A program made the position numbers and the translations under genes. A stretch of DNA of 26,922 nt from a virus. Shown piece after piece: positions 1,122 through 12,527 of the stretch. Within the stretch, counting starts at the first letter, position 1. The number at the start of each line of letters is the position of its first letter. The stretch is taken from IMG/VR virus record IMGVR_UViG_3300025082_000057, positions 1 through 26,922 of that record. One strand, given 5' to 3'. The notes beneath the pieces are model-generated. The model did no database searches. It saw only the letters and a list, made by a program, of their open reading frames with translations, and was not told where the DNA came from.

Positions 1122-1576
1122 TGGGTGCCGCTGCAATTCCTATCATCATCGCTGCAGTCGGTATTGCCATGCAAGCCGCCTCCGCAAAATCCGCTTCCGA
1201 TGAGGCCAAATTCCAGCGTAAACAGGAGGAGCAAAAAGCCAATGCAATTCGTGCCGAGGCCGCCAATCAAGAGGCTGCGCGGCGCCGGGCGTTCCATCGC
1301 GCCATTCAGGCTGATCTCGCACTGAATGCCGCCAGTGGAGTTCGCAATTTCCTGGGCGGCACACCGGCGGCATTGAAGAAAGATCAGGAGGCCAATCTGG
1401 AACGCGACATTTTGACCATTCGCGCAAACGCTGCTGCAGGCATCAGAACCACTGGATTGTCAGCGGCTTCCGCCAGCAATCGCGCTCGCGGCGCACAGTT
1501 ACAGGCGTTCGGCACGGCGGCGCAAATTGGCCTTAAAGCCGCTCAATCGGCACGCACGCAGAGGACGACAGGATGA
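1121..1576 (+). CDS. Internal virion protein B-like (T7 gp14-like) ejection protein
   Basis: This is a 151-residue protein with a hydrophobic N-terminus (about residues 4-20, AAIPIIIAAVGIAMQAA). A charged, alanine-rich coiled-coil segment follows (about 25-60) and then an Ala/Arg/Gln-rich helical tail. T7 gp14-like proteins of short-tailed phages have this architecture: small, one N-terminal membrane-seeking helix, the rest helical. They are ejected from the capsid and insert into the outer membrane at the start of infection. The position between the tail nozzle gene and two very large helical proteins is where gp14 homologues sit. The start overlaps the upstream stop by one base. The end overlaps the next start as ATGA. 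Sequence identity to T7 gp14 is not visible to me, so the call is from architecture and synteny. Confidence 0.6.
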   Translation: MGAAAIPIIIAAVGIAMQAASAKSASDEAKFQRKQEEQKANAIRAEAANQEAARRRAFHRAIQADLALNAASGVRNFLGGTPAALKKDQEANLERDILTIRANAAAGIRTTGLSAASASNRARGAQLQAFGTAAQIGLKAAQSARTQRTTG

Positions 1577-4398
1577 GCCGGCGTGATCGAGTAGAGAGCA
1601 AGATATCTCTCAACATCCCCGGCGTGGTTGCTCCCGCTAACACCAGTGCGGCCATATCCAATCTTGGAGTATCGCTCTCAAATATCAGTCAAGATTTGTT
1701 TGCGCAAAATGCAGAAAGGCTGAAACGCAAAGGCGCCGCTGCTGGCGAGATAGCTGGCAATGATCCTGATCTCAAGCTTCGCCCAGCCGACAGCGATCAG
1801 ATATTTAATATCCATTTTAACGCCACGGCGAAGCAGCAGTATCTCGCGAACCTTCGTATTCGTGCCGGTGATCAATTGCAGCAGATCGAGCAAGACAATT
1901 TCAACGACACCGAAAAATATTTGGACGAGGCACAGGTTTTTAGAGATGCGACAGTCGGCAATGTCGATCCACAAATAGCGGCGGCGGCTGAACTTTTGAT
2001 CGATCAGCAAATTGCTGGCGGGCGCGCCCGAGTCGCTCAAAATCAGTTCAATATCTCGCGCAATCAACGTGTCACCGATATCACAATCGATCATAATATT
2101 CGTATCGATCAACATTATCGAAATGTTGAAAATGGTATAGCGAGCCTTGAAACCTTGCCCGACGATATAGAGGGTATGGATTTGTCCGAGTTCGCCAGGG
2201 CCACGGGCCTCGGCAGCGCGCCTTCGGATAATCTCGGCGAAGGCGTCATTGCTCAAATCATTTTCGAGCATAAGCAAGGTCAGGCCGAAGGGCTCTATAC
2301 GACAGCCCAGAGCGTTGCCTTTTACGACAACCTCAAATATCGGGCGCTCCAAGCGGAAGGCGGAAGTCAGTTGCGCCAGATGATTAATGCTGGGAAAACC
2401 CAGGCCGAAGTTATCGAATTTCTTCAGACCGTAGCAAACGGCAGCGCGCCTTTCATGAGAAATCAAGATCAGCTTATGCGCGCTCGCGTCAACGATCATC
2501 TGGTAATGATGCACCAGCGGATGACGCAATCTGATGTGGCCGAGGCCACGGCCCGCAAGGCCCAACGTGCCCAAAAGCGCACTGAAGATGTGGCGACGAT
2601 GAATTTGCAGTTGGCGAGAGCCATGCCGCTAATTGAAGCCGCTGTTGCCGCTAACGATCAGGAGTTTCTGTCAAAATATTTGACTGAAGTTGCGGATGAT
2701 TTGGCTCGCGCTGTTTCTGCTGATCCCCTGTTTTTTGCAGCAGCGCAAAACATCATGCGTAAAATAGTTGACGCTATTAACAATGCCACCGACAAAACGA
2801 ATGAGCTCGCCGAAGCACAGCTTGTCATTGCTGAAGCATTGATTAATCCGTCACCCAGTCCCGCCCCGCCGACACCGAAACTTATAGCCGCTCGCGAAAC
2901 AGTTTTTGATAATCAAATAGCAGAAGGCAAGCTGCGAACAAAAGATGATCCAGAGCTCGGGATTGTCATGTATGGCACAGAACAAGACGCCCTCGAAATT
3001 AGGAAGGAAATAAATCGTCTCGGTGTGCCGAAAGCTTTTGCCGCGCAATTAGCCTCAAGAAACAAAACTGCCGAGGAATTAATTTGGCTGGGTAAAGTCA
3101 TTGGCCCTCTTTGGATTGACAATCCCAACGCCAATGAAATCAAAGCGCAGTTTCCATCGGAAAATATTGGGTTCTATGAAGTTGTCGCGCGCCAAGTGAT
3201 GAGCGGTTCTTCTAACCCAGACGATTTCCGTCATCTCGTTAATGACCCTGCCGGCAAATCCTTTGAAGAACGAGTGCTTGATCGATTGACTGCGCTCGAC
3301 ATTCAAATTCCAGAAGGTGTTGATCCGGCTCTCGGCATTTACGCCTGGATCGATTCTGAAGGTCTATTCGACACCAATGAAGCCGACGGCGGATTGAGTT
3401 TTCCCGACCAAGCGGCTCTTGTCAGTATTCAAGAAGAAAGCGGCTTTTTAGGTGCCTTTAGCGATGTCATCGATTCCACATTCAATTTCTTTGATGCCAT
3501 GCTTGACGGCAATCGTATCGATAAAACTTTGCCGCCGGGCTATCGCGAAACGATAATGTCCATCGCTCTACAAGAAATGATGGGAGCATCGGCAAACAGG
3601 GAATCGCTGGAACTCGCGCTCGAAAGAGTGCCTGACCGAATGAAACAGCTTGGCCTGTATGGTGTCACATGGACGAATGGCATGGGCCGGATTGTCAAAA
3701 ATCCTGGCGAGCTTACAAACCATGCCGACTTCACTGTTGTCGAGGGAATGAAATACGCGCGGACCATCGTGTTCGAATCCGGTGTCATGCGGGCGCTTGC
3801 GCCTTTTAAGACGGCGAATAACATCTGGGATGGCGAACATTTCCAGCCCTATGAATTTCTCCGAGATGGTCGGCTTGAAGTCGTTTCTGTAAACAATGGC
3901 AACTATGTTTTTAAGATACATAATAAGGAAACGGGCCGTTGGAAATGGCTGACGGAAGGACCGCCCGGCGAGCAGAAAAACTTCATTTTTAATTACGCTA
4001 AATTTGTTGCCAGCGAAGGCCAATTTATTGCCGGCGCTGATGAGCCATTGAATGTTGAAGATATAGCGAAGGGCAAAGGCCCCGATCTGACCATCCAAAA
4101 CATGATCAGAGAATCCGCTGATGCTGCAAAAGCGGCGACCTCTATACCTATCATTCAGGACCTCATATTCCAGCAGGAATATTTCAACCGGCTCAGAGAG
4201 CATGGTTTCTCATTCATGTCCGAGCAAGTTGGCTTCTTCACCGCTCTCAGCAATGAGGCAACCCAGCTCTGGGCAATGCTGAAAACAGAGGCCGCGCAAC
4301 TCGGCTATGAATTGCCGTCGCCGCAGGATGTATTCCCACCGCTCGAACCGGGCATCGATGACGTAAGCAATGCCGATCTCGTAGGACCGAAGAATTAA
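1573..4398 (+). CDS. Internal virion protein C-like (T7 gp15-like) ejection protein
   Basis: This is a 941-residue, mostly helical, soluble protein with no signal peptide and no clear membrane span. Near residues 78-90 it has FNIHFNATAKQQYLANL, resembling the conserved N-terminal helical part of podoviral internal core proteins. Long Ala/Gln/Glu-rich helices follow, with an N-rich linker around 430-450 (SPSPAPPTP). In T7 the equivalent protein (about 750 residues) is ejected with gp14 and gp16 to form a trans-periplasmic conduit for DNA. The ATG lies inside the stop of the preceding gene (ATGA overlap) and the next gene starts on the base after its stop, so this is one operon. A 298-codon open frame lies antisense to its first third but has no coding character. 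Function is inferred from order, size and composition. Confidence 0.55.
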   Translation: MSRRDRVESKISLNIPGVVAPANTSAAISNLGVSLSNISQDLFAQNAERLKRKGAAAGEIAGNDPDLKLRPADSDQIFNIHFNATAKQQYLANLRIRAGDQLQQIEQDNFNDTEKYLDEAQVFRDATVGNVDPQIAAAAELLIDQQIAGGRARVAQNQFNISRNQRVTDITIDHNIRIDQHYRNVENGIASLETLPDDIEGMDLSEFARATGLGSAPSDNLGEGVIAQIIFEHKQGQAEGLYTTAQSVAFYDNLKYRALQAEGGSQLRQMINAGKTQAEVIEFLQTVANGSAPFMRNQDQLMRARVNDHLVMMHQRMTQSDVAEATARKAQRAQKRTEDVATMNLQLARAMPLIEAAVAANDQEFLSKYLTEVADDLARAVSADPLFFAAAQNIMRKIVDAINNATDKTNELAEAQLVIAEALINPSPSPAPPTPKLIAARETVFDNQIAEGKLRTKDDPELGIVMYGTEQDALEIRKEINRLGVPKAFAAQLASRNKTAEELIWLGKVIGPLWIDNPNANEIKAQFPSENIGFYEVVARQVMSGSSNPDDFRHLVNDPAGKSFEERVLDRLTALDIQIPEGVDPALGIYAWIDSEGLFDTNEADGGLSFPDQAALVSIQEESGFLGAFSDVIDSTFNFFDAMLDGNRIDKTLPPGYRETIMSIALQEMMGASANRESLELALERVPDRMKQLGLYGVTWTNGMGRIVKNPGELTNHADFTVVEGMKYARTIVFESGVMRALAPFKTANNIWDGEHFQPYEFLRDGRLEVVSVNNGNYVFKIHNKETGRWKWLTEGPPGEQKNFIFNYAKFVASEGQFIAGADEPLNVEDIAKGKGPDLTIQNMIRESADAAKAATSIPIIQDLIFQQEYFNRLREHGFSFMSEQVGFFTALSNEATQLWAMLKTEAAQLGYELPSPQDVFPPLEPGIDDVSNADLVGPKN

Positions 4399-7300
4399 AT
4401 GGCCGGTGTCCCTCCCATCGAGCAAGAGGAACTTGGCGACAGCTTTGATCCAAAGTCTGTTCCGGCGCCGACGCCGCGCCCGGCTCGCTTTGAGGACTTG
4501 CTGCTCAATCCGAACCTGTCTCCGCGAATGCGACCCGTTCCGCAATCTACGATCTCTATTCGCGATCCCGAATTTAATCCGGTCCTGGCATTCAAAGCGG
4601 CGCTCCACCAGAACAATATGTTCTCGTCGGCCATTCGGGATTTCGCTTTCTCGAAAGCCATTGAGAATGCAGAGCAAACCCGCGTAGGCCCGCCGGTCGA
4701 TCCCTGGCAAGTTAGCCAATATGCCAATGCGTATCCGGTCGTATATGCCGGGCTGACATCGCTTACTGCCATCCAGATCGCCGACAGGCAGATCGAGGGC
4801 GAGCTGCTTGATGCGGAGATTATCGCGTCGAACGGCTGGGCGGCGGCTCTCGGCATGGTCGGCGCCGCCTTCGTCGATCCCCTGCAATTCCTGTTTCCCC
4901 TTGGCCGACTGAAAACCGGCATTGGCTTTCTGCAAGGCGCCTCACGCGCGGCGCTCCCCGCTTTCACCTCAAACATCATCGATGAGATCATCATCTCAGG
5001 AGGACAGGTGACGCGCCCGCTGGACGAATCCGCGCTGAATGTCCTGATGGCCGGCGGTATCGTCGGTATCTTTGGTGGCGCAGCGGGGCATTTCGGCCAC
5101 GATTACACCAATCGCCTTGTCCTGAAGCACATGAAGAACATGGAGGAATTTCAGGCCAACGGTGGCCCGAAAGGATACAAGGAAGCCCCGACCGGCCGAA
5201 ATGTCGTGAAAGTCGATGACGATGCCGATTTTTTTGATGAAACCCGGCCCCGGTTCAAAAGTGCTGGCGCTGCCGCGGTAGACGAGAATATGGCGGCAAA
5301 GACCGATCAGGAAATCCGTGACGGCGAAGGGCTTGCCTCGGCGTTTGGCCTCGAAAAGCTGCCCGATATTCCTTACAAGCGCCTGATGTATTCTCCCCTC
5401 ATCATAACGAGGGAGTTCACATCAATGCTGGTGGAATCCCCCGGCACCCTCCAAAAGAAAAACTTCGCGCTTGAGGCAACGCCTCATGCCGTCGAGACAT
5501 TAATCGCGCCCTGGAACTTCAAGCTTTTTGATGGGCTGCGAAAGATCAATGAACTATATGCCGAGTATCGCGATCTGAAATTGGGCGCCAGCACCAGTTC
5601 TCAAATTCTCGGCCTCGCTAAACTCGCGGCCAAAGATTTGGTCGGAGGACGTGACGGCAAATTGTCACCCAGCGAATTTCGCCAAGAAATTTCACGGGCG
5701 CTTGGCGACAAGGAGCAGCACGAAAATCCGTTTGTCCAGAAGGGGGCGGTTGAGATGCGCCTGGTGCTCAACGAACTGCGCGATCAGGGAATTGAACACG
5801 ACATCTTTACGGCGGCGCAACGATCCAAATCAGCCGCCAAGTCCAAGGCACTTGTCATTGATGAGGCCGCGTACAAAAAAACGGTCGATGAAATCATCGT
5901 CCTGCAAAAAACATTGCGGCAAAAAGAGATCAAGGCCACAGCCACGCACGGTCCCCGCTCTGACGATAATGCCCAAGGTTGGGCTGGTGTCGACAAGCTG
6001 GCTAAACGCATCAAGAAAATGCGCGCTCGCGCTTCTCAGATGAAAAAGAATATCCGTTCTACAAAGACATCGATCCAATCGCTTCAAGATGAAATCAAAG
6101 CCATCCGTGAAGAAGGCCCGACTGTCTTTGATGACGAAGGCTATTTTCCGCGCATCTGGCGTATTGATAAGATCGAAGCCAACATGGATGTCTACCGCAG
6201 GGTCATTGGTGATTGGCTGACAAGCAAAGGCGTTCCGGCGAAGGAACTCGAAAATGAACTCGCACGTTTTCTTGAGCTCATCCGCCGCGATCACAATTAC
6301 ATCAAGCCGATAGATCACGATCCCGGCATCGCTCGCTCGGCTCGCGCTCGCGTGGTCGATCTTCCCAATAGTGCGGTATGGGAACTTATCGAAACCGATA
6401 TTGATGCGATCATGCGGAGCCACGTTCGATCTTTTGCCACCGATCTTGAGTTGGTCAAGAAGTTCGGCACAGTCGATCTATTTGAGCAGACTGAATTGAT
6501 CCGTGCAGGCTGGGCGGAAAAGATAGCGGAGGCGCCGGCCAAAGATCGCCCGGCCCTGGCGAAGAAAGCAAAGAAGGAAATCGACGATTGGCTCGCGATG
6601 CGCGACAGGCTTCGTGGAACATATGGCCTTCCCGAGGACCCGTATCGTTTGCAATCCCGGTTCTACCGGGTGATGAAGCAATGGAATTATCTGACGTTCC
6701 TGGGCGGGGTGGTGCTTTCAGCGTTGCCCGATGCCGCGCGCCCGATAATGACCGAAGGTTTGGAACGGACATTCGGAACGTCCTATGCCCTCCTCAAAGC
6801 TAGCCCGGAGTTCCGGCGTCTTGTTGCCAAGGAAAATAATATGTCGGGTGTTGCGCTCGATATGATTATGAACACTCGCGCAATGCAGATGGCCGATATG
6901 GGCGATGTTTTTGGCCGGCAGAGCGGCCTTGAAAGAACCCTTCATGCCACCGCCGAAGCGTTCTCAATGTTCAATCTCCTCAATCCCTGGAACACATTTG
7001 TTAAGGAATGGGCCGGTGCTATTGTCGCCTCCCGAATATTCGAAGCGGCTGATCTCTTTATTGACTTTGCACTTGTGAAGGGTAAAAAAATTCCCTTTGA
7101 TTTTGTTAAACTTGCTCGCAGCGGTATAGATAAGCCGATGGCAAAACGAATAATGAAGGAATTTTATCTTCACGGTGATATCGCTTTTCTTGACGGAAAG
7201 ATGATGAGCGATTTGCTCGAAGGTTTGAGCGGTAAAGAACGACAGGCGGCTGTCAAAAAAGCTATAGCACGGGCGCGAAAACAAGGCGCGGCATTCCTCG

Positions 7301-7950: not shown

Positions 7951-9606
7951 ATGCCAATCACCATTTCCGACAACACTCCCCGCGTCGTCGATGTCGTCGG
8001 CGGCACCCCGCAAACCGTTTTCACTGTCGGTTTTGAATGGTTCGCTGATGCCGATCTGAAAGTCTATAAAGATGGCGTACTGCAAACTCTGACGACGCAT
8101 TACACATGCACAGGCGCGGGCGTATCTGGCGGCGGCACCGTCGATTTCGTAAGCGCGGTCAGCAATGCCACCGTCACGATTATACGGGATATGGCGATTG
8201 CCAGAACCAGCGATTTTCCGATTTCGGGCACGTTCAAGATTGACACTCTCAATAACGATCTCGATAAGATCACCGCCATGATGCAGCAGCTTGAGCGCGA
8301 TATCCAAGCCCTCATGTTCAAAGCCGATCCGTTTGATACCGTGAACGATTGGAGTATGCCGCTTAAAGCGGCGCGGCTCGGCGCTATCTTTGGCTTCGAT
8401 TCCACGAACGGCGATCCCGAGATGGTGGCGGTATCCGGCTTTGGCGCATTGCCGGCGCCGGGAACACTCGCCGCCTTGGATATGGTCCGCGTCAATGCCG
8501 CCACGGATGCCTATGAAGCGCAGACAGCAACGGAAGTGGCTGCATCGGTTGCCGCCGTTTTTGCCAATGACGCGATCTCCGGTGACAAGGTTGAAGGCGG
8601 AACCATTGGTTCGATTACGATCCAGAACCCTCAGATCACCCAGATTCAGTTGGGTCACGCAAGCGACACGACCATCGCTCGCCATTCGTCTGGTGTGGTT
8701 ACTATCGAAGGGGCCGTTATCTACAGAGTGGGCGGCCAGACCGTTTCTGTGGCTGACGGTGGCACGGGTACCTCGTCGATGGTTGACGGCGCGATTCTTC
8801 TCGGAAATGGCGCCGGCGCCATCGCCAGCATGTCAGTTTTGGGGGACGGTGAAATCCCGGTCGGCGACGGCGCGGCTGATCCGGTGGCTTTGGCGGCATT
8901 CACCAGTTCGACCGGTACCCTCAAACACGAATCCGGTGGCATTGAGTTCGATGCCTCTGCCGTGGCGGATGGCGATTTTATCGTCGGTACCGGCGCCGGC
9001 TCAATGGGCCTTGAGAGCGGCGCGACGGCGCGGACAACGATGGGCGTTGGCACGGGGGATAATGTCCAATTTACCAACATCACAGCAACCGGCGCCTTCA
9101 CCTCGCTCGGCATCGATGACAATGCGACCAGCAATGCCATCACGATTTCTTCGGATGAGGAAGTCACGATGCCGTCGCAGCCTTCATTTCGTGTCACCCT
9201 CGCGGCACAGGCGGCTAATGTGACGGGTAACGGGACTGTCTACACTGTGGTCTGGAACACCGAGACTTGGGACATCGGTGGCAATTTCAACAATAGTACT
9301 GGTGTATTCACTGCTCCGATTACTGGAAAATATTTTTTCACAACGCACTGCTACATGTCTGGTGCCGGATCAGCGCCAACATACGGCGACATTCAATTCG
9401 TTACTTCCAATCGAACCCACACCCACAGGATGTGGGATGTGGGCAACAGTGGTGGCCCCGGAGGAATGACTTTTTCAATACTCGCCGACCTGGATGCGAG
9501 CGACACCTGTTATGTTACTGTAGCGGTCGGTGGCATCGGTGCCGACACCATTGACATTGAGGGTGGCGACACGCTCTCGTGGTTCTCGGGCAGCCTACAA
9601 CATTAA
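7951..9606 (+). CDS. Tail fibre protein: T7-fibre-like N-terminus, C1q-like C-terminal head
   Basis: This is a 551-residue protein. Residues 1-130 match the layout of the T7 tail fibre N-terminal domain that anchors the fibre to the tail: a 'FTVGFEWFADADLKVYKDG' strand pair, a TVTIIRDM strand, and FKIDTLNNDLDKI followed by a short coiled coil. The middle (about 255-400) carries degenerate glycine-rich repeats such as GGTGTSSMVDGAILLGNG, typical of trimeric fibre shafts. Residues about 411-551 look like a C1q/TNF-like jelly roll, with the hallmark segment FNNSTGVFTAPITGKYFF, later aromatic strands and the C-terminal GGDTLSWFSGSL. That domain is the likely receptor-binding head. The Shine-Dalgarno AGGAGA sits just before the ATG. 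The fibre follows the internal virion genes, as in T7-like and other podophages. The head-domain call is strong by motif, while the ligand is unknown. Confidence 0.8.
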   Translation: MPITISDNTPRVVDVVGGTPQTVFTVGFEWFADADLKVYKDGVLQTLTTHYTCTGAGVSGGGTVDFVSAVSNATVTIIRDMAIARTSDFPISGTFKIDTLNNDLDKITAMMQQLERDIQALMFKADPFDTVNDWSMPLKAARLGAIFGFDSTNGDPEMVAVSGFGALPAPGTLAALDMVRVNAATDAYEAQTATEVAASVAAVFANDAISGDKVEGGTIGSITIQNPQITQIQLGHASDTTIARHSSGVVTIEGAVIYRVGGQTVSVADGGTGTSSMVDGAILLGNGAGAIASMSVLGDGEIPVGDGAADPVALAAFTSSTGTLKHESGGIEFDASAVADGDFIVGTGAGSMGLESGATARTTMGVGTGDNVQFTNITATGAFTSLGIDDNATSNAITISSDEEVTMPSQPSFRVTLAAQAANVTGNGTVYTVVWNTETWDIGGNFNNSTGVFTAPITGKYFFTTHCYMSGAGSAPTYGDIQFVTSNRTHTHRMWDVGNSGGPGGMTFSILADLDASDTCYVTVAVGGIGADTIDIEGGDTLSWFSGSLQH

Positions 9607-9618
9607 AGGAGATAAAAC

Positions 9619-9906
9619 ATGCCGAATTTTACTGTTATCGTTACGGATGAGCAAATGGCTTGTCTCGCTCACGATATTCCTAGCGCGGAGGTTGTAGCCG
9701 ACATCCAGCGGCGTCTTGATCACGTGATCTCGAATAAAATTGATGCCTGCAAGGAACGAATTATCAAGGAGGGCATGGTAGACATTTACCAAGACCCCGA
9801 CATCACAGCAGTACCCGCCGATAGGGACGCGCTGATAACGACGATCCTTGGGCGGCCCAGCTATAAAGATCGCGATGCGCGGGATGCTGCTATTGCCGTG
9901 TCGTGA
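9619..9906 (+). CDS. Small phage protein of unknown function
   Basis: This is a 95-residue acidic protein with no membrane span or signal peptide. The first 60 residues look like a beta strand (FTVIVTDEQMACLAH) followed by a long amphipathic helix with Arg/Lys pairs. The C-terminus is rich in Asp and Arg. AAAGGAGA lies 5 bases before the ATG, a strong ribosome binding site. It lies directly after the tail fibre gene, a usual place for fibre chaperones or small virion-associated proteins, but I do not recognise a family. Confidence 0.7.
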   Translation: MPNFTVIVTDEQMACLAHDIPSAEVVADIQRRLDHVISNKIDACKERIIKEGMVDIYQDPDITAVPADRDALITTILGRPSYKDRDARDAAIAVS

Positions 9907-9922: not shown

Positions 9923-10186
9923 ATGACTGTTATCGAAGACCCTGTTGCACGCGCCCAAATCGCGGCTCACATCAAGACATGCGAAACTCATGATGGCGAG
10001 TTTCGGGCGGCGCTTAAACGCATCGAGTTCGGGCAAGATAATCTATGGAAGGCGATCACGCGGGGGCGTGAGACGCGGTTCCGAATGGTTATGTCTGTCG
10101 TTGGGTTTATGGCATTAATTTTGCTGGGGTTAATCGCATATATTTGGACAACCTCACTTTCAGGAGCTATTTCAGGAGCTATGTGA
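9923..10186 (+). CDS. Small single-span membrane protein, holin-like candidate
   Basis: This is an 87-residue protein. Residues 1-50 are polar, with a short helix (FRAALKRIEFGQDNLWKAI) and basic residues RGRETRFR just before one strong membrane span (about 53-76, MVMSVVGFMALILLGLIAYIWT). A short outside tail follows. The layout (soluble N-terminal coil, basic patch, one C-terminal span) resembles XhlA-type lysis proteins and some small class III holins. GGAAGG precedes the ATG by 8 bases. It stands just before a secreted protease gene, and a 3TM holin gene follows 1.8 kb on, so a role in lysis is reasonable but not shown. Its last codons carry a 12-base tandem repeat. Confidence 0.6.
   Translation: MTVIEDPVARAQIAAHIKTCETHDGEFRAALKRIEFGQDNLWKAITRGRETRFRMVMSVVGFMALILLGLIAYIWTTSLSGAISGAM
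10159..10182 (+). repeat. Tandem 12-base repeat carrying two AGGAG boxes
   Basis: TTCAGGAGCTAT occurs twice back to back at the 3' end of the small membrane protein gene, encoding a repeated Ser-Gly-Ala at the C-terminus. Each copy carries AGGAG. The second lies 14 bases before the ATG of the protease gene at 10193, so the repeat duplicates the likely ribosome binding site of the downstream gene. Confidence 0.7.
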
Positions 10187-10192
10187 ACCGAA

Positions 10193-11029
10193 ATGTTTAA
10201 AAAATTTATTCTTGTAATTTTCATAGCAGCGGCGTTTCTTATCGCGCCTACCGCACGAGCGGAGGAGAAAACCGACGCGCCTGTCCAGCGGATTGCCCAG
10301 ATGCTTTATCCCAGCGTCATGGTTGATGTTGGTAGAGGTCAAGGGTCAGGCACAATAATCTACTCTGAACGGCGCGATGACGAAGCATGGACAATGGTAT
10401 TAACAAATCATCACGTTGTAAAAAGTGCATTACAAATTCTCACAGAATTTGACCCCAAACAAGGGGAGGAGGTCAAGCGGGAGCACAGGCGTCCCGTAAA
10501 GATTCGATTTTGGTCTTACAATCAGTTTTCCTCTGCCATTGGGACAAGCGGGAGGACCGCGCATATTGTTGCATGGGACAGACACAGAGATTTGGCGCTT
10601 CTTCGAGTAGATGATAAGGAAAAAATCTATGATAATGTAGCTATTTTATGGCCCGAGGATGCCGAGGGACCTTACGTTTTTCAGAAATCATGGGCTGTAG
10701 GGTCTGGGCTAGGAAACCCCCCGTATCCGACTGAAGGATTGCTCAGCAACACCACCGCAAAAGATAAAGAGGGTTATTCCCTGTATCAAGCATCCGCGCC
10801 CATAATTTTTGGGAACAGCGGCGGTTCTTTATATGTTTACAGTGACTTACGAGAAAATTATGAATTAATAGGAGTGCCAAGCATGGTGAGTGCTGTGGGG
10901 TTTGGTTCGATAGTCAGTTTTGTCGCTTGGAGCAGACCAATTACAGAAATTCGCAGTTTTCTTAGGCAATCTAATTTTGGCTGGGTTATTGGGGACGCGC
11001 CGGAGGTGGAGGATGCTAGCGCGAACTGA
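10193..11029 (+). CDS. Secreted trypsin-like (HtrA/DegP-class) serine protease
   Basis: This is a 278-residue protein. Residues 1-23 are a Sec signal peptide: Lys-Lys, a hydrophobic core to about residue 19, then ARA before EE, so cleavage is expected after Ala23. The mature part is a chymotrypsin-fold protease. It has TNHHVV with catalytic His74, HRDLALLRV with Asp133, and FGNSGGS with nucleophile Ser209 in the GNSGG context. No PDZ domain follows, because the protein ends about 70 residues after the serine. The product should act in the periplasm or outside the cell. The gene sits seven bases after the membrane protein gene and before the endolysin-holin pair, so it may help lysis, process an envelope protein or block superinfection. 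Base composition looks more AT-rich than its neighbours, which suggests a later acquisition. The triad is seen directly; substrate and role are unknown. Confidence 0.85.
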   Translation: MFKKFILVIFIAAAFLIAPTARAEEKTDAPVQRIAQMLYPSVMVDVGRGQGSGTIIYSERRDDEAWTMVLTNHHVVKSALQILTEFDPKQGEEVKREHRRPVKIRFWSYNQFSSAIGTSGRTAHIVAWDRHRDLALLRVDDKEKIYDNVAILWPEDAEGPYVFQKSWAVGSGLGNPPYPTEGLLSNTTAKDKEGYSLYQASAPIIFGNSGGSLYVYSDLRENYELIGVPSMVSAVGFGSIVSFVAWSRPITEIRSFLRQSNFGWVIGDAPEVEDASAN

Positions 11030-11192: not shown

Positions 11193-11528
11193 ATGTCAAC
11201 CAATAGCCAAAACGAAATCGAACCGCGGCAAGATCACTATCAGACCTATACGCACTCCACGACAGCCACGGGCGCGGCGAGTGCCGTTGCTGTTGCCGCC
11301 AATGTCAATCGTCGATATCTTCTAATCCAGAACGACGACGTTACCGATCCCGCATATATCAAGGTCGGCGCCGCGGCTGTTGCGAATGAGGGCATCAAAA
11401 TTGTTGCCGGCGGAAGCTTTGAGATGTCAAAGCAAAACGGAAATCTCTCGACTGTGGCCGTGAACTGCATTCAGGGGAACTCCGCCGAATTGCTGTTGAT
11501 CACCGAAGGCGTCAATCGCGTATCATGA
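11193..11528 (+). CDS. Small beta-rich phage protein, possible decoration or fibre-associated protein
   Basis: This is a 111-residue protein. After a polar N-terminal 25 residues comes a predicted beta sandwich: RRYLLIQNDD, AYIKVGAAAV, GIKIVAGGSFEM, then hydrophobic strands. Many phages carry a similar small protein with a 'rryLliqN.s....yv..g..a....gi.l.pGgs.e' pattern, near tail or lysis genes and without assigned function. TAGGAGCG precedes the ATG by 6 bases. The 163 bases upstream hold no clear gene. The stop is one base before the endolysin start, so the two are probably cotranslated. Confidence 0.65.
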   Translation: MSTNSQNEIEPRQDHYQTYTHSTTATGAASAVAVAANVNRRYLLIQNDDVTDPAYIKVGAAAVANEGIKIVAGGSFEMSKQNGNLSTVAVNCIQGNSAELLLITEGVNRVS

Positions 11529-11529
11529 T

Positions 11530-12009
11530 ATGTCCTTTGGCATTCAAGTTGGCGATCTCCGCGAAATCATTATTCGTCCGGCTCTTATGCACATCGAGGC
11601 GTGGTCGGAAGCGGCGGAAGAAATAGTTCTCGGAACGGCACTCACCGAGAATTATAGCAATGGCTCTCTTAGCCTGGATCAAGACGGTGGTGGTCCGGCT
11701 CTTGGCCTCTGGCAAATGGAGCGGGCCACTATGAAAGATATCGAGCAAAACTATCTCCGGTTCCGGCCCGATATTAAAGGTCGTGTCGATATGATGTATG
11801 CGGTCTGGCCAATCCCGGAAATTCAATTGTCGGGCAATCTCTATCTCGGTGCGGCAATGTGCCGATTGCATTATCTCCGACAGCCTGGCGTTTTACCCGA
11901 GGCCGGTGACTATGCCGGCCAAGGCGCCTATTACAAAAAATTTTACAACACGCTCTTGGGCGCCGGTACAACCGAGCGCTATATTGAGGCGATGGAAAGG
12001 AACTTCTGA
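11530..12009 (+). CDS. Endolysin: small lysozyme/SLT-fold transglycosylase-like protein
   Basis: This is a 159-residue protein without signal peptide or anchor. The segment LGTALTENYS followed by GPALGLWQMERAT matches the 'ES...S..GA.GLMQ' layout of soluble lytic transglycosylases. Glu40 stands at the catalytic position and GLWQM is at 59-63. Further on, LYLGAAMCRLHYLR fits the helix that follows in the fold, and an aromatic segment near 130-140 could line the sugar cleft. It is shorter than bacterial SLT proteins and amounts to a bare catalytic domain. The product would cleave peptidoglycan glycan strands once released through the holin. It begins 2 bases after the preceding stop, and its TGA shares a base with the holin ATG (TGATG). 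That endolysin-holin coupling supports the call. An alternative is a non-lytic virion-associated protein of the same fold. Confidence 0.65.
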   Translation: MSFGIQVGDLREIIIRPALMHIEAWSEAAEEIVLGTALTENYSNGSLSLDQDGGGPALGLWQMERATMKDIEQNYLRFRPDIKGRVDMMYAVWPIPEIQLSGNLYLGAAMCRLHYLRQPGVLPEAGDYAGQGAYYKKFYNTLLGAGTTERYIEAMERNF

Positions 12010-12527
12010 TGGTTTTGCCCCTGCTTCTCGGTCTTGGGATTTCACTCGCCAAGGAATTTGTGCCTGACATCATTGGCTCCATCGCCGGCAAAGAAGGCGA
12101 GGCAATTGCCGAGCGCGTAGTCGGCCTGGCGGAAGGCATCACGGGCGAGAAAGAACCGGCTTCAGTTATGAAGGCGTTGCGCGAAAATCCTGATATGGTG
12201 CTGAAACTTCAAATGGAACTCGCCGAGGAACGCCGTGAAGCCTTGAAATACGAATATCTTGATCGAGCAAGCGCGCGGCGCATGTCGATGAAAAGCGATC
12301 TTCACGCATGGGCGCAGATCATCGTCTCGATCCTTGTCACCGCCGGCTTTGGTATGATGCTCTGGGCGGTTGTCACCAAGCCGATCCCAGAAGCGTCTAG
12401 CGATATCGCGCTGATCATGCTCGGCACGTTGGCGACCGGCTTTGCCCAGGTGCTTAATTTCTGGCTTGGTTCCTCGCGAGGAAGTCAGGAGAAAGGTGAT
12501 CAGTTGGCTGCGGCAGCAAGAAAATGA
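12009..12527 (+). CDS. Holin, 3TM gene-transfer-agent type
   Basis: This is a 172-residue protein. It has a hydrophobic N-terminus (VLPLLLGLGISLA), a charged middle with NPDMVLKLQMELAEERREALKYEY and RASARRMSMKSD, then two clear membrane spans (about 101-124 and 131-155). It ends in FWLGSSRGSQEKGD. This is the layout of the 'holin of 3TMs, for gene-transfer release' family found in alphaproteobacterial gene transfer agents and related phages, including the NP-rich helix and the 'fWfGSS.gS..K' tail. It should form lesions in the inner membrane that release the endolysin encoded just upstream. The start overlaps the endolysin stop by one base. It is the last confident gene of the rightward block. 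Confidence 0.8.
   Translation: MVLPLLLGLGISLAKEFVPDIIGSIAGKEGEAIAERVVGLAEGITGEKEPASVMKALRENPDMVLKLQMELAEERREALKYEYLDRASARRMSMKSDLHAWAQIIVSILVTAGFGMMLWAVVTKPIPEASSDIALIMLGTLATGFAQVLNFWLGSSRGSQEKGDQLAAAARK

Follow-up and report, generated by a model that had tools for sequence, protein, structure and literature searches.

A PDZ-less, HtrA-like serine protease gene that appears to move singly between phages and may assist late envelope breakdown

Introduction

What does an exported trypsin-like protease do between the tail fibre and the lysis genes of a phage, and from where did its gene reach this position? These questions are raised by an ORF in virus record IMGVR_UViG_3300025082_000057, the entire IMG/VR record of which (26,922 bases) was analysed here and is referred to as the window. 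The reading that we favour, tentatively and at somewhat less than an even chance, is that a PDZ-less, HtrA-like protease, acquired as one-gene cargo from another phage lineage, would be made late and would help in the breakdown of the cell envelope. The matter has a wider bearing: in PMC6139136, 91 of 677 surveyed phages have no identifiable spanin and their way of breaking the outer membrane is described as open, and an exported protease that recurs in lysis cassettes would be a concrete candidate for this step in spanin-less phages.

The protease and its family

The ORF opens with an ATG at 10193 and closes with a stop codon at 11027–11029 (Table 1). Its product matches Pfam Trypsin_2 (PF13365) with 45.2 bits against a curated cut-off of 27.6 (E 2.1e-11) and Trypsin (PF00089) with 23.2 against 20.6, and the catalytic residues lie in the motifs TNHHVVK (H74), RHRDLAL (D133) and FGNSGGS (S209), the His–Asp–Ser triad being kept in 14 of 14 aligned homologue sequences. 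The N-terminus carries a single hydrophobic stretch from residue 5, typical of the Sec type in its hydropathy and by eye, with a signal peptidase I site of the ARA type that was likewise judged by eye. A preliminary description of this DNA had recognised the signal peptide and the three catalytic residues and had considered an active periplasmic or extracellular protease likely; the family match above cut-off, the invariant triad and the exported-type N-terminus agree with this, and the protein is likely an active, exported trypsin-like enzyme. As judged from its conservation, the ORF is more than a chance ORF, since 71–89% protein identity is kept in nine IMG/VR contigs and dN/dS between the window copy and that of contig L001 is about 0.1 (0.07/0.64).

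Profile searches matched DegQ/HtrA chains (best E 5.7e-12), and with the HtrA/Do family (DegP, DegQ, DegS) the window protein shares the protease domain and the periplasmic address. It differs from that family in that no PDZ domain follows the protease domain, Pfam having returned Trypsin families only and 69 residues being left beyond S209, and in that the NCBIfam Do profile (TIGR02037; E 2.6e-11) gave 43.1 bits, far under its cut-off of 416.2. Structure prediction gave a first model with pLDDT 31 and a second with pLDDT 43 and pTM 0.50; among the fold matches to this low-confidence model, that to DegS stripped of its PDZ domain is the best, and the agreement with DegS/DegP is taken at fold level only, TM-scores of about 0.2–0.4 having been set aside. 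Entries of a viral structure library include a 'periplasmic serine protease' of podovirus ct9P15 and an 'HtrA' of Rhizobium phage AF3. The best reading of these predicted features is a PDZ-less, HtrA-like periplasmic serine protease, and its gene is a real, intact and mobile phage gene of an already known enzyme kind.

Trypsin-like peptidases are required for lysis in Caulobacter, as reported in PMC13236601, the activity of LypA/LypC of Caulobacter crescentus being needed for the lysis that frees phage-like particles. However, LypA/LypC are host CARD-NLR-like multi-domain proteins and not exported phage proteins; neither a CARD nor ATPase domains nor partner genes of the LypA type were recognised at the window protease, whose 278 residues hold one protease domain.

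Table 1. Features of the window around the protease gene (aa, amino acids)
Feature	Position	Strand	Remark
Tail fibre, C1q-like tip	7951–9606	+	phrog_1640 tail
95-aa ORF after fibre gene	9619–9906	+	no family found (Pfam, PHROGs)
87-aa ORF, one hydrophobic segment near C-terminus, XhlA-looking	9923–10186	+	hydropathy, alignment
Likely exported trypsin-like serine protease gene (Trypsin_2, HtrA-like without PDZ)	10193–11029	+	278 aa
Signal-peptide-like segment, residues 1–23	10193–10261	+	hydropathy; predicted cut after ARA, by eye
Stretch of DNA similar to contigs from an unrelated lineage of phages	10193–11013	+	full extent in closest copies, shorter in more distant ones
111-aa ORF, right-hand edge of variable slot	11193–11528	+	78% identity in relative G001
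phrog_3108 protein, candidate peptidoglycan hydrolase	11530–12009	+	by position; G001 homologue truncated, then M15 endolysin
phrog_1544 protein, several hydrophobic segments, candidate holin	12009–12527	+	by position

Genomic context and the variable slot

On its + strand the window carries genes for a podovirus tail-tube protein, internal virion proteins and the fibre, on its − strand the recombination and replication genes SSB, RusA and exonuclease, and close to its right end the terminase small subunit gene; no large terminase, portal or capsid gene was among the ORFs given to PHROGs (20 of the 138 listed). Amid the virion proteins, a 941-aa ORF (1573–4398) has no significant family match and shows 24% identity to a protein of the relative G001. 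The protease gene lies on the same strand as the fibre and lysis-like genes, and scans for sigma-70 promoters and terminators gave scores for this gene at or below those of shuffled sequences, with no + strand sigma-70 promoter.

The placement between fibre and lysis genes, as first described, holds: the fibre gene upstream is followed by two small ORFs, and the downstream block is lysis-like by position. The second small ORF reaches 36% to Sulfitobacter SUFP_012 in a MAFFT alignment, a likeness to XhlA that finds support neither in a Pfam profile nor in tblastn. At the left junction, shortly before the start codon of the protease, TTTCAGGAGCTA occurs twice as a short tandem direct repeat (10158–10181). 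Downstream, no library names a lysis function for ORFs 11530–12009 and 12009–12527, which are read as lysis genes because an M15 endolysin and a holin-like ORF occupy that position in G001; ORF 11530–12009 is probably the peptidoglycan hydrolase of the window phage.

Three relatives (G001, G002 and G003) share the tail-tube protein at 71–78% identity, and neither the protease nor any Trypsin_2 match was found in their records, of which only that of G001 covers the site, those of G002 and G003 not reaching it. The preliminary description had suggested comparing presence and absence at this site, and in G001, the sole close relative that spans it, the protease is absent. Between the fibre genes and the homologue of ORF 11193–11528, the slot of G001 is taken by two other ORFs, a hydrophobic one of 58 aa and one of 160 aa whose N-terminus is hydrophobic; beyond the slot, only a 5' fragment of the 11530–12009 homologue is present, with the M15 endolysin and holin-like ORF in its stead. 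The replacement marks the block as an exchange place of lysis genes. The fragment (L033 7166–7320, in record G001) lies next to the M15 endolysin, an arrangement resembling the outcome of a lysis-gene swap. In the same record, four fibre-like ORFs follow one another (L033 808–6001), each of the last three with a small ORF behind it; the window has one fibre gene.

With its absence from this site in G001 and its deviant base composition, the protease gene shows two marks by which a moron is recognised, a promoter and terminator of its own being a further one. A Trypsin_2 gene was found in none of five more distant podovirus records, among them ctHz2215, in which an annotated XhlA gene comes directly after the fibre, and in neither of the two other phages sharing ORF 11530–12009. 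Searches via the 1180-aa virion protein and via ORF 12009–12527 yielded no relatives.

Origin of the protease gene

The nine contigs that carry the closest relatives of the protease belong to an unrelated phage lineage. In the closest full-length copies, DNA similarity extends from the start codon to a point 13 bases short of the stop codon, and the window copy differs in DNA from every known copy by 14–31%. When 23 window proteins were compared with the nine loci, the protease was the sole match. Judged from these comparisons, the gene appears to move between phages as one-gene cargo and would be a clean case of such movement between phages sharing no other gene found.

The surroundings of the gene in these contigs are those of replication. 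A PD-(D/E)XK-like ORF, whose Pfam match (E 3e-4) stays under the family cut-off, precedes the protease in 7 of the 9 loci and in the full record of L011, the ninth locus, L005, beginning inside the protease. Among the genes upstream of the protease are DNA polymerase A, in 6 of the 9 loci, and a UvrD-type helicase, in L001 and L006; the neighbourhood is not that of a lysis block. The C-terminal tail of the protease, acidic and variable in length, is overlapped in the contigs by an ORF in another frame (8168–8593 in L002, with equivalents in L003, L004, L005, L009, L010 and L011), an overlap that the window copy lacks. In L011/L035 (record G005) the reading frame of the protease is interrupted close to residue 47, at about 10712, through decay or a sequencing error. 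L035 also contains, at 6139–6681 on the − strand and about 3.3 kb from the protease, a Hydrolase_2 (SleB-like) endolysin ORF with a signal-peptide-like N-terminus, of which L009 has a look-alike, by eye only. The preliminary description had named two findings that would speak against its account, conservation of the gene in relatives far from lysis genes and loss of the triad in most homologues; the close relatives do lie apart from lysis genes, in the vicinity of DNA polymerase A, and the triad is not lost.

In phylogenetic trees the window copy groups with L001–L005 and is split from L006, L009, L010 and L011 at 100/100 (codons) and 100/99 (protein); holding L001–L005 together without the window copy gave an AU p of 0.078, and the trees do not pin down its nearest neighbour. 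Within the donor lineage, identities of the PD-(D/E)XK ORF track those of the protease (r 0.79, 28 pairs) whereas those of polymerase A do not (r −0.14, 15 pairs), so that this lineage is itself mosaic. Since members of it fall to either side of the split and the PD-(D/E)XK ORF has diverged roughly in step with the protease, the simplest history would be a transfer from this lineage, or from an unsampled relative, into the window phage. The trees being unrooted, it is a matter of likelihood and not of proof that phage-to-phage transfer explains the window copy better than bacterial capture.

Capture from a bacterium was what the preliminary description had proposed, in line with a composition more AT-rich than that of the neighbouring genes. 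The composition was correctly seen, as the protease ORF has the lowest GC (0.470) and third-position GC (0.437) among 17 hand-picked window ORFs; it is not a simple donor signature, however, because the nine other copies have a GC of 46.6–52.8%. Scans of bacterial genomes confirmed no relative, either with the window protease family, by a method that reaches close relatives only, or with the Sulfitobacter protease described below, and of two plasmid searches one gave a single weak match and the other none. A bacterium as the immediate source was rejected, given that the closest relatives reside in another phage lineage and the bacterial scans, within their reach, were without relatives; a distant bacterial origin of the protease fold is possible.

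Exported proteases in other phages

The earlier statement that phage lysis blocks do not usually include such a protease requires a qualifier, as two other phage lineages have an exported-looking Trypsin_2 protease inside the lysis cassette. In Sulfitobacter phage NYA-2014a the order is endolysin, membrane ORF, XhlA and Trypsin_2 protease (GH108 and XhlA confirmed by Pfam), pCB2047-A has the same order plus one more ORF after the endolysin, and pCB2047-C is also among the matches listed. This protease (phrog_9683), like that of the window, looks exported and, in its case, directly follows an XhlA-type membrane gene; it differs in sequence, with 29% identity over 94 residues only, and in having a GH108 endolysin upstream and a phrog_704 gene next. 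In Microcystis phage Mae-JY35 an amidase comes first, then a pair of small membrane ORFs, an ORF for a lipoprotein, a further membrane ORF and the protease (XAI96534.1), which ends the lysis cassette and is linked to the window family by hhalign at 99.1%, although identity is 25% and a lipoprotein (o-spanin-like) ORF stands two genes upstream. Scans with the Mae-JY35 protease found no relative, and those with the Sulfitobacter protease gave one match, to the same protein.

Trypsin_2 proteases with the triad are also present in Sinorhizobium phage phiM9 and Rhizobium phage P10VF, both T4-like phages of Rhizobiaceae, in which, unlike in the window, the gene lies between head and helicase genes on the strand opposite to most neighbours; the Sulfitobacter XhlA and the phiM9/P10VF protease are mentioned in PMC10783043. 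Altogether, the protease is in the lysis block in 3 of the 5 phage lineages examined and elsewhere in 2, these five having been gathered via similarity and one paper and not forming an unbiased sample. Among the papers listed by full-text searches on phage trypsin-like proteases, none speaks in its title or the beginning of its abstract of an exported protease at work within the lysis cassette of a phage.

Proposed role and alternative explanations

The sequence comparisons are consistent with the following course of events. The protease gene would have entered the podovirus from another phage lineage, into the variable slot between fibre and lysis block, and, given the direction shared with virion and lysis genes, would be expressed late. 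Its product would be exported by Sec, freed in the periplasm and built up there before lysis, where it may cut envelope proteins and so assist the holin and the peptidoglycan hydrolase in breaching the envelope. In the donor lineage, among replication genes, the protease may serve an earlier envelope function. A lysis role is plausible because of the two other lineages with the gene in the lysis cassette; against it count the closest orthologues, near DNA polymerase A and not lysis genes, and the two Rhizobiaceae phages with the gene between head and helicase genes.

A bolder version, which we consider improbable, is that some Gram-negative phages finish lysis by an exported trypsin-like protease and a small XhlA-type membrane protein, cutting the proteins that tie the outer membrane to the cell wall instead of or beside spanins, with the gene as a swappable lysis module moving between unrelated phages. 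The window protease itself has neither a lipobox nor an inner-membrane anchor of the kind expected of spanins, its N-terminus resembling a cleaved signal peptide. In a simple lipobox scan, neither the window nor the examined parts of G001, which has no protease, yielded a convincing lipoprotein; the presence of the protease thus does not go with the absence of spanins, which counts against simple replacement. Moreover, Mae-JY35 has both a lipoprotein ORF and the protease, and the Sulfitobacter record, when scanned more loosely, shows a lipoprotein-like ORF beyond the lysis cassette. Spanin substitution was demoted as the main reading on these three grounds, and for the window protease it is weak.

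Two other functions are unlikely, although less so than spanin substitution. The protease could trim or remove outer-membrane receptors and in this way keep out superinfecting phages or release progeny from receptor debris, as might befit an exported protease near a fibre gene that behaves as one-gene cargo and lies in the replication region of the other lineage; its placement in the lysis cassette in two other lineages and among the late genes of the window argues otherwise, superinfection exclusion being usually less useful at that stage. With much the same low probability, it could degrade misfolded or abundant periplasmic proteins in the manner of DegP/DegQ, as housekeeping or nutrient cargo with no direct lysis role, in which case the finding would be ordinary. 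DegQ, Do and DegS are indeed its nearest solved relatives and its location varies between phages, but the missing PDZ domain and the score far under the Do-family cut-off tell against this function.

Cleavage of an envelope-located host defence protein is very unlikely: PADLOC gave weak matches only (best E 1.9e-4), through the shared protease fold, no partner gene was recognised, and the protease is exported whereas most known defence proteins are cytoplasmic. Membership of a defence system was rejected on account of the same weak, fold-driven matches. Least probable of all is that the gene owes its placement to a chimera, two phages that occur together having been joined in assembly. In favour of this, the window stands as one virus record, without reads to check, and no second phage with its arrangement was found; yet the divergence of the window copy from every known copy speaks against such a join, and the similarity spans the gene from its start codon to next to its stop codon with no common flank seen.
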